From: Ilex aquifolium
Taxonomy: Eukaryota > Streptophyta > Magnoliopsida > Aquifoliales > Aquifoliaceae
Assembly (NCBI GenBank): GCA_951799425.1
Contig: OX637405.1
Location: 30,525,135-30,589,134, forward strand
DNA length: 64,000 nt
Direction: 5' to 3'
Below are positions 511-64,000 of this stretch, one piece after another. Position 1 is the first letter of the stretch. Each line of letters begins with the position of its first letter. Below the pieces are notes generated by a model that was not told where the DNA came from, searched no databases, and was given only the letters and a program-made list of their open reading frames with translations. The position numbers and the translations under genes are program-made.

Positions 511-523
511 GTTATATGAAGAA

Positions 524-879
524 GGGGCTATTCCACATCGATAGCCTTGGGGTGAGTTTGTGTGTGTATAAGGCCCTACTTCACTACCACTTTAAGTGGC
601 GGTGTAGTAGTGGTCTTGTGTGTGTGTGTGTTGTGTGTTTCTTGTCAAAAAAAAAAATCATTTCTACGCGTATGTGGGAACTGTGCTCGCGCGTCTGCCC
701 CACGCTGTCTGTGTGAGCTCGGTCTGTGACGACGATGTTGAGACTGGGGCTATCCCACATCGATAGTCTTGGGGTGAGTTTGTGTGTGTATAAGACCCTA
801 CTCCACTACCACTTTAAGTGGCGGTGTAGTAGTGGTCCTCTGTGTGTGTGTTGTGTGTTTCTTGTCAAAAAAAAAAAAG
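524..879 (+). mobile_element. Dimeric poly(A) retroposon with snRNA-type promoters
   Basis: Two related monomers lie in direct order (about 524-657 and 743-878), each ending in cttgtc followed by 11-12 A. Both carry a plant Upstream Sequence Element: ttccacatcg at 531-540 and a perfect atcccacatcg at 752-762. In both, a TATAAG box (567-572; 789-794) follows after exactly 26 nt. The downstream region can form a hairpin, with CCACTAC pairing to GTAGTGG around an inner CCAC/GTGG. The whole dimer is flanked by a perfect 13-bp direct repeat, gttatatgaagaa, at 511-523 and 880-892, as expected for target-primed insertion. There is no protein-coding capacity; short open frames crossing it are mostly TG-repeat translation. 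USE plus TATA at this spacing is the known layout of plant Pol III-type U6/U3 genes; that this element is transcribed is inference. Confidence 0.75.
752..794 (+). promoter_or_regulatory. USE + TATA snRNA-like promoter, monomer 2
   Basis: Perfect match to the plant snRNA USE (RTCCCACATCG) at 752-762, then TATAAG at 789-794. The 26-nt gap resembles the Pol III class (U6, U3) rather than the longer gap of Pol II U snRNA genes. Predicted start is about 23 nt past the TATA box, near 818, inside the hairpin. No run of four T is seen between there and the poly(A) tract at 867-878. Confidence 0.6.
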
Positions 880-892
880 GTTATATGAAGAA

Positions 893-63763: not shown

Positions 63764-64000
63764 GTGATGATGGGTTTTGGGGGGGTGGTGCTGGGTGGTG
63801 CTGGGTTTCAGGGGATGAGGGTGGGTTTCGAGGATGGGGATGGGTTTCGGTGATGGTGGATTTCAAGGGATGGGGGTGGGTTTCATGGATGAGGGGGTGG
63901 CTTTTCAGGGGGTGGTGGTGTGTTTCGGGGATGGTGGTAGGGTTGGGTGGTGCTGGGTTTCAGGGGATGAGAGTGGGTTTCGGGGATGGGGGTGGGTTTC
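63764..64000. repeat. G-rich minisatellite, cut by window edge
   Basis: Irregular tandem units of gggtttc(a/g)rggatgrgggt, alternating with ggtggtgctgggt, downstream of a tatataaaaag box (63666) and a CT tract (63730-63744). Runs of four or more G are frequent on this strand. Frames contain stops, so no protein is claimed. Confidence 0.75.

Follow-up and report, generated by a model that had tools for sequence, protein, structure and literature searches.

The 355-bp dimer at positions 524-878 of the window (the whole stretch of 64,000 nucleotides of Ilex aquifolium DNA analysed here) belongs to a family of non-autonomous retroposons which probably, though by no means certainly, combines LINE-type (TPRT) insertion with the rebuilding of two terminal repeats on moving, as in LTR elements. 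The parts of this interpretation that can be read from the DNA itself are the hallmarks of TPRT, the fixed dimeric layout, the conserved USE-26-TATA arrangement, the joint evolution of both repeats and a variable T-run shared by them; from these we infer a unit-length RNA, the joining of its ends and a second transfer. The whole survey covered one genome, that of the host (800 Mb), as DNA sequence alone, and the family counts given below refer to the best-scored copies, all family searches but one having scored a part of their candidates.

Anatomy and promoter of the dimer

The earlier note on this DNA had described two monomers, each with a USE, a TATA box, a hairpin and an A run, enclosed together by a perfect 13-bp target duplication. 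This anatomy holds and the duplication is indeed perfect (511-523 = 880-892). The direct repeats 524-657 and 746-878 share 94% identity over 134 columns (89% without gaps), and both M1 and M2, which are separated by the 88-nt linker and each followed by an A run, contain a USE, 26 nt, a TATA box and a palindrome. The USE announced for both monomers is exact at 752-762, but at 530-540 it has one mismatch. The coordinates of all the features are collected in Table 1.

Table 1. Features of the dimer and its target site in the window
Feature	Position	Strand	Remarks
Left target site duplication GTTATATGAAGAA	511..523	+	Perfect 13-bp match to 880-892
Terminal repeat M1, LTR-like	524..646	+	U3-like 524-593, R-like from 594; 94% identity to M2
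M1 5' stem GGGGCTATC ... GATAGCCTT	524..548	+	Loop overlaps USE
M1 USE ATTCCACATCG	530..540	+	One mismatch to RTCCCACATCG
M1 TATA box	567..572	+	26 nt past USE
M1 T-run at the U3/R junction	591..593	+	T3 here; same in M2
Predicted Pol III start AAG	594..596	+	TATA+27 to +29; by host U6 start positions
Internal A tract behind M1, proposed priming site	647..657	+	A run of 6-17 in the 30 parsed copies
Linker, 88 nt	658..745	+	G-rich right ahead of the second GGGG
Proposed unit-length Pol III RNA (R, A tract, linker, U3, T-run)	594..815	+	Fold and scarcity of inner T4
Terminal repeat M2	746..866	+	94% identity to M1
M2 USE, exact RTCCCACATCG	752..762	+	
M2 TATA box	789..794	+	26 nt past USE
M2 T-run, proposed terminator	813..815	+	T3 here; T4-T6 in 26/38 family units
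3' A tail	867..878	+	Read from the sequence
Right target site duplication GTTATATGAAGAA	880..892	+	Perfect match to 511-523

Regarding the surroundings of the dimer, a protein-like stretch at about 1601-1735 resembles, by eye, what we take to be a phospholipase C exon, so the insertion may be intronic or located upstream of the gene. Positions 1756-2307 contain a MITE-like element whose inverted ends are 85% identical over 74 nt and which has a 9-bp direct repeat, ATTTATTTA. A G-rich tandem repeat of period 19, with overlapping periods of 35-36 and 97, occupies 63802-64000 and reaches the end of the window.

In the plant snRNA consensus, as described in PMC9845283, the USE RTCCCACATCG lies at -70 and the TATA box at -28 to -30, both elements are one helical turn closer in Pol III than in Pol II genes, and in dicots the sequence upstream of the USE is reported not to matter (PMC9845283). 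The spacing of 26 nt between USE and TATA, noticed beforehand in both M1 and M2, was confirmed and is kept by the distant subfamilies; it was 26, 26 and 28 nt in three host U6 genes and 34 and 33 nt in two host U2 genes, these genes coming from searches in which the best candidates alone were scored. Seventy repeat units of the family were recognised by a USE with no more than three mismatches. The USE was exact in 51 of them, and the first TATA lay exactly 26 nt past it in 50 and at 24-32 nt in 17 more, the remaining 3 having none within 40 nt. The repeat units have, then, the USE and the TATA at Pol III spacing that characterize a type 3 Pol III promoter. The USE alone is weak in the window, since TCCCACATCG with at most one mismatch appears five times where 1.76 are expected, and five or more are also obtained in 5 of 100 shuffles. 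The genome-wide search for USE-N20-40-TATA gave 3063 counts against 12 in the reversed control, in a count where variable gaps may register one USE repeatedly.

The U6 RNA starts at TATA+29 in two of the host genes and at +26 in the third, from which the M1 RNA is predicted to start near 593-596, beside the AAG that comes after the T-run. As for internal promoters, no exact B box was present in 38 units of the family and the best combined A+B score was no better than that of shuffles; one A-box-like stretch, with one mismatch, lies at element position 19.

Three TRIM-like LTR elements (own genome, C1: L133, L134 and L135), picked from the genome-wide USE-TATA list, have LTRs with USE-26-TATA, and L133 and L134 carry the primer site TGGTATCAGAGC. 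The USE-TATA unit appears, on these sequences, to be common to the retroposon and to TRIM-like elements of one genome, and L133-L135 are possibly U6-type TRIMp3, which we did not find described in the literature searched. In L134, CCTCTTCT is followed by AAGAGG at TATA+28/29 (counted by eye), a junction design as in the retroposon. A further element type, at C1:2086315-2086869 of the same genome, twice shows a pair of USE-TATA units in opposite orientation, separated by about 120 bp.

Family copies and the joint change of their repeats

The earlier note had taken the dimer for a retroposon, and many genome copies with A tails, TSDs and the same layout bear this out; the dimeric form is a trait of the family. 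The dimer as query gave at least 41 matches in its own genome (best 40 of 169 candidates scored) and the query 655-760 gave 33 matches from 33 candidates, several of them to its 3' part only; in each of the more distant family searches the best 40 of 173-341 candidates were scored. Linkers are very different in the distant subfamilies, and the plan GGGG-M1-A-linker-GGGG-M2-A is kept.

The 3' end and the A tail were common to most of 39 copies, and the 5' ends were scattered along the element. By an automatic rule, a TSD of at least 11 nt with no more than one mismatch was assigned to 25 of these 39 (including L032, which sits in a TA repeat), and left and right flanks taken from different copies passed in 4 of 300 control pairs. 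Such a TSD was also found in 21 of 30 parsed copies. These were picked as long matches and, because the parser looked for an A run, the A tract in them is partly there by design; the element starts with GGGG (524), or within one base of it, in 26 of the 30, 70-72 nt upstream of the start site. Two copies, L019 and L107, have 5' inversions. The truncated copies L013 and L015 begin at 595, which is not convincing alone because three truncated copies begin at element position 200. Judging from the poly(A), the long TSDs, the 5' truncation and the 5' inversions, the family inserts in the LINE-type manner (TPRT), and the A tail and long TSD by which SINEs reveal this type of insertion were both found.

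Regarding the number of repeats, the survey of monomers versus dimers that had been suggested revealed 29 dimers and one trimer, L123, among the 30 parsed copies, together with two single repeats with TSDs, L036 and L040, the GGGG of the latter being supplied by the target itself. In L123 a mutated USE is common to repeats 2 and 3 and both linkers are nearly identical, a pattern that fits what would be expected from unequal crossing-over. M1 and M2 of several C copies do not have the same base ahead of the A tract (GAT|A, GATC|A), unlike what a fully copied repeat would show. A related form, L136, has a linker of 7 nt. In L156 the U3 and the 3' part of the linker are missing twice, and the R-A-partial linker segment is repeated at the T-run.

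Both repeats were compared in 25 full dimers, with microsatellite columns masked and without the trimer and L119, L120, L126 and L132, in which M1 is cut or deleted. Own-pair differences totalled 130, whereas re-paired repeats averaged 496 and never fell below 335 (0 of 20,000 trials reached 130), and the nearest unit was the own partner in 34 of 50 cases, 3 ties among them. Subfamily membership makes a part of this contrast, and this is itself the point, as each subfamily has changed both repeats in step. Within subfamilies, an excess of own-pair similarity was detected in A, where the T-run accounted for nearly all of it (a share of 0.003 of the trials did not exceed the observed value), and in C1 (0.001), and own-pair similarity was not significant in C3 and C6, with 3 copies each (0.17). 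The R part and the first 29 columns showed little or no excess of own-partner similarity in A and C1. Terminal repeats that are equal at insertion and co-evolving, as those of LTR elements, were found, the identity at insertion being judged from five young family-E dimers only. The two terminal repeats evolve together like LTRs.

The T-run, of 3-6 nt and sometimes with one other base, lies between the arms of the palindrome at the predicted start. Of 52 dimers, 48 carry matching T-runs in their two repeats (by group, A 12/12, B 7/7, C together with L136 25/28, and E 4/5, with the trimer counted once), a count that leaves out L013, L015, L033, L111, L118, L132, L146, L147 and L156, in which one run is missing or unreadable. 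When the repeats were re-paired within groups, 18.1 agreements were obtained on average and 32 at most in 100,000 trials. Eight of the 48 concordant dimers have a C/T difference between their repeats at the pairing base beside the run; under a strict rule that counts it, 40 of the 52 agreed, whereas re-paired repeats averaged 14.8 agreements and never exceeded 26 (0 of 100,000 trials reached 40). L113, L116, L154 and L155 were discordant under both rules. The M2 T-run of L154 looks inverted with respect to that of M1, and the inverted copy L019, outside the count, has TTTT in both parts.

In family E, 24 copies were read among 28 matches of at least 95% identity. Their 29 repeats, two units being compared in R only, showed 10 differences from the common sequence in 2253 sites outside the T-run (0.44%). 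The T-run itself took the forms TTTT, TTTTT, TTTAT, TTTGT, TTCTT and TTT, with 4 of 5 dimers concordant. Some forms are recurrent: TTTT is found in A, B, C and E, TTTGT in A, C and E, and TTTAT in C and E. Such varied T-runs in copies about 99.6% identical, and their recurrence, suggest that the T-run is remade often and that the new forms enter both repeats, and the remaking perhaps takes place in each jump.

Putative unit RNA, proposed cycle and rival explanations

The segment that begins right after the M1 T-run and closes with that of M2 was read in 38 units, with the window copy included and L120 absent; the lengths read were 203-232 nt. All of them resemble Pol III genes in that they start with AAG (AAC in one), have complementary ends and finish with the T-run, a common form which is partly due to selection because the search pattern required AA after a T-rich run and the known stem arms. 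An inner T4 run was absent in 33 of the 38, compared with 32% of shuffles, and the other five have inner T4-T6; among hand-picked family representatives, 12 of 15 were without it, against 4.8 expected. The last 7 nt of the unit contained T4-T6 in 26 of the 38, T3 in ten (the window copy among them) and T2 in two, the T3 and T2 endings being weak terminators.

Two units were folded, those of the window and of L150. The window unit (595-815) gave -78.8 kcal/mol (z -3.72) and the L150 unit a z of -4.00, and in each of them the ends pair, leaving a 3' UU overhang; the z values of a single repeat and of the linker were -0.77 and -1.02, respectively. Among the rotations of the L150 unit the true ends were not singled out by energy (rank 23 of 70), so folding alone is no proof of the RNA ends. 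In the two stems of 57 repeats, 94.2% of the cells pair, versus 35-51% in slid versions, and 59 cells are doubly changed, versus 20.7 in shuffles. The 5' stem (524-548 in M1) is paired in 96.9% of the cells of these 57 repeats, with double changes at one of its 9 pairs, in 19 repeats. Two of five covariation measures were at the level of shuffles, namely doubly changed pairs (7 versus 6.8) and pair types (25 versus 24.6), and these are the two least misled by relatedness. The stem structure is likely to be real, though short of proof by covariation because these two measures do not exceed shuffles.

In the cycle that we propose, Pol III would start just past the M1 T-run, in R, would read the A tract, the linker and U3, and would stop at the M2 T-run, giving a unit-length RNA with its two ends paired. 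The nicked target DNA would prime on the A tract, which would account for the A tail, the long TSD and the 5' truncation. The RT would then copy R to the RNA 5' end and pass onto the oligo(U) 3' end, either by a template jump or because the RNA had previously been ligated into a circle. Since such an RNA has R at its 5' end and U3 at its 3' end, a dimer whose left end is U3 could be obtained from it only by joining the two ends. This joining would create a new U3/R junction with a few variable bases, and the junction would be T-rich and variable because the template jump or ligation occurs at the oligo(U) end; U3 and the linker would be copied next. Priming at the G-rich stretch ahead of GGGG, together with matching across the A tract, would allow a second transfer that brings the same U3-junction-R into M1 and restores the external promoter upstream of the start site. 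Entry of one junction into both repeats is also the outcome of the LTR cycle. By analogy, the A tract may be considered to stand at the position of the LTR primer site and the G-rich stretch before M2 at that of the polypurine tract; by eye, the stretch before the second GGGG is G-rich and interrupted, with no clean polypurine tract.

A simpler scheme had been put forward in the earlier note, in which transcripts initiated at the M1 promoter cross M2, reach the final A tail and are inserted as they are, with no regeneration. Its idea that the dimer serves to keep an external promoter looks right, but simple copying to the A tail would make new copies start near 594-596, unlike the GGGG starts observed in 26 of the 30 parsed copies, and a single round would remove the M1 promoter, leaving no way for dimers with a GGGG start to form. 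The truncated copies L013 and L015, which start exactly at 595, would suit this scheme, as would the reported lack of TTTT across 596-878; this is true of the window copy, whereas 26 of the 38 family units end in T4-T6, a possible Pol III stop within M2. Neither these runs nor those shared by M1 and M2 are explained by direct insertion, which we consider highly improbable, and LTR-like regeneration of the promoter fits the data better. From the original interpretation, the retroposon, the dimer as a trait and the conserved promoter remain, but not the simple copying of RNA to the final A tail.

The main rival of LTR-like regeneration is an ordinary dimeric retroposon mobilised by L1, whose RNA, from GGGG to the A tail, would be copied as is, and whose repeats would be kept alike at the source locus by gene conversion or unequal crossing-over, with breakage at the palindrome around the T-run as perhaps the trigger. 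The starts at or within one base of GGGG are what this rival predicts; recombination between repeats would be expected to produce the monomers L036 and L040 as well as the trimer L123, the unequal recombination that fits L123 could also homogenise them, and breakage at the palindrome might give an inverted-looking T-run as in L154. However, family E has at least six types of T-run at a difference of 0.44%, with concordance in 4 of 5 dimers, so that conversion would have to be faster there than every other kind of change. In addition, the scan for A and B boxes, which covers promoters of that type only, found no internal promoter for a start at GGGG, and the USE and TATA would be retained for no reason. 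Taking both sides together, we regard this explanation as rather unlikely.

That the element is a TRIM (a small non-autonomous LTR retrotransposon) moved by an integrase is extremely improbable. The direct terminal repeats, the promoter near the left end and the presence in the genome of TRIM-like elements with the same promoter (L133-L135) would agree with it, but the element starts with GGGG and ends in an A tail instead of having TG...CA, its TSDs measure at least 11 nt (25 of 39 and 21 of 30 copies) instead of 4-6, it undergoes 5' truncation, and the primer site TGGTATCA, the one motif searched, was absent from all 38 units. Within the reach of these tests, TRIM or LTR membership is ruled out by the ends, the TSD and the primer-site motif. 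Other identities were also discarded: an A/B-box SINE, by the box scan of the 38 units; a retrozyme or ribozyme, as no CTGATGA core was present in the 38 units and no Rfam match was obtained in the window or in five loci tried; a known RNA family, with no match in the window or these five loci and six sub-threshold matches in another search; and a tRNA, none being found. The bacterial match L001 consisted of 19 letters only, with flanks unlike the element, and two element patterns searched against viral contigs found nothing.

Relation to known systems and meaning of the family

SINEs are short, non-coding and inserted in an L1-like manner, and dimeric SINEs exist in plants. The Ilex family is like them, the dimeric ones included, in these properties as well as in its A tail, long TSD and possibly Pol III transcription; it differs by its external snRNA-type promoter, by the lack of any detected A or B box, by its co-evolving repeats and by frequent 5' truncation. 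Penelope-like elements also combine terminal direct repeats with TPRT, but they are autonomous and use another endonuclease. In U6-LINE chimeric retrogenes and in the end-to-end template jumping of R2 and L1, an oligo(U) 3' end is joined to the 5' end of another RNA; this joining is accidental there, whereas in the Ilex family it is proposed as a regular step.

The TRIMp3 elements described by Kojima (Cassandra, Helenus and Ajax) are LTR elements with tRNA or 5S promoters (PMC10886601). As in the Ilex family, their terminal repeats carry a Pol III promoter, which is hence regenerated, but TRIMp3 elements have LTR ends, a primer-binding site, a PPT and TSDs of 4-5 bp, and the words "snRNA" and "TATA" appear nowhere in the main text of that paper (PMC10886601). 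Retrozymes are a precedent for the unit-length RNA proposed here: their RNA is described as having unit length without a repeated R, and cDNAs of one, two or more units have been proposed for them (PMC4918200). Retrozymes differ in that hammerhead ribozymes set their RNA ends and LTR machinery integrates them (PMC4918200). Although the Ilex family shares features with TRIM, SINE and retrozyme alike, it fails the tests made here for TRIM (ends, TSD and one primer-site motif), for SINE (A/B boxes) and for retrozyme (hammerhead). In the searchable literature, outside which lie Repbase and most subscription journals, we found no plant retroposon described as combining co-evolving repeats with a USE/TATA promoter, and absence from print is not claimed.

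Reverse transcription should lose external promoters, and the known escapes from this are the internal promoters of SINEs and the strand transfer of LTR elements. The Ilex family appears to join LTR-style regeneration with LINE-type insertion. We tentatively propose, with the balance close to even, that it may represent a third mode of retrotransposition, in which a Pol III RNA with each part in single copy is end-joined in the course of a LINE-type insertion and two promoter-bearing repeats are regenerated. If this is true, an external promoter would be kept without an integrase, a tRNA primer or LTR machinery. The T-run junction would be a readable scar in each copy, making the RNA ends, the template jumping of plant LINEs and Pol III termination testable from genomes alone. 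Finally, the family suggests a route by which LTR-like and LINE-like life cycles may be interconverted.
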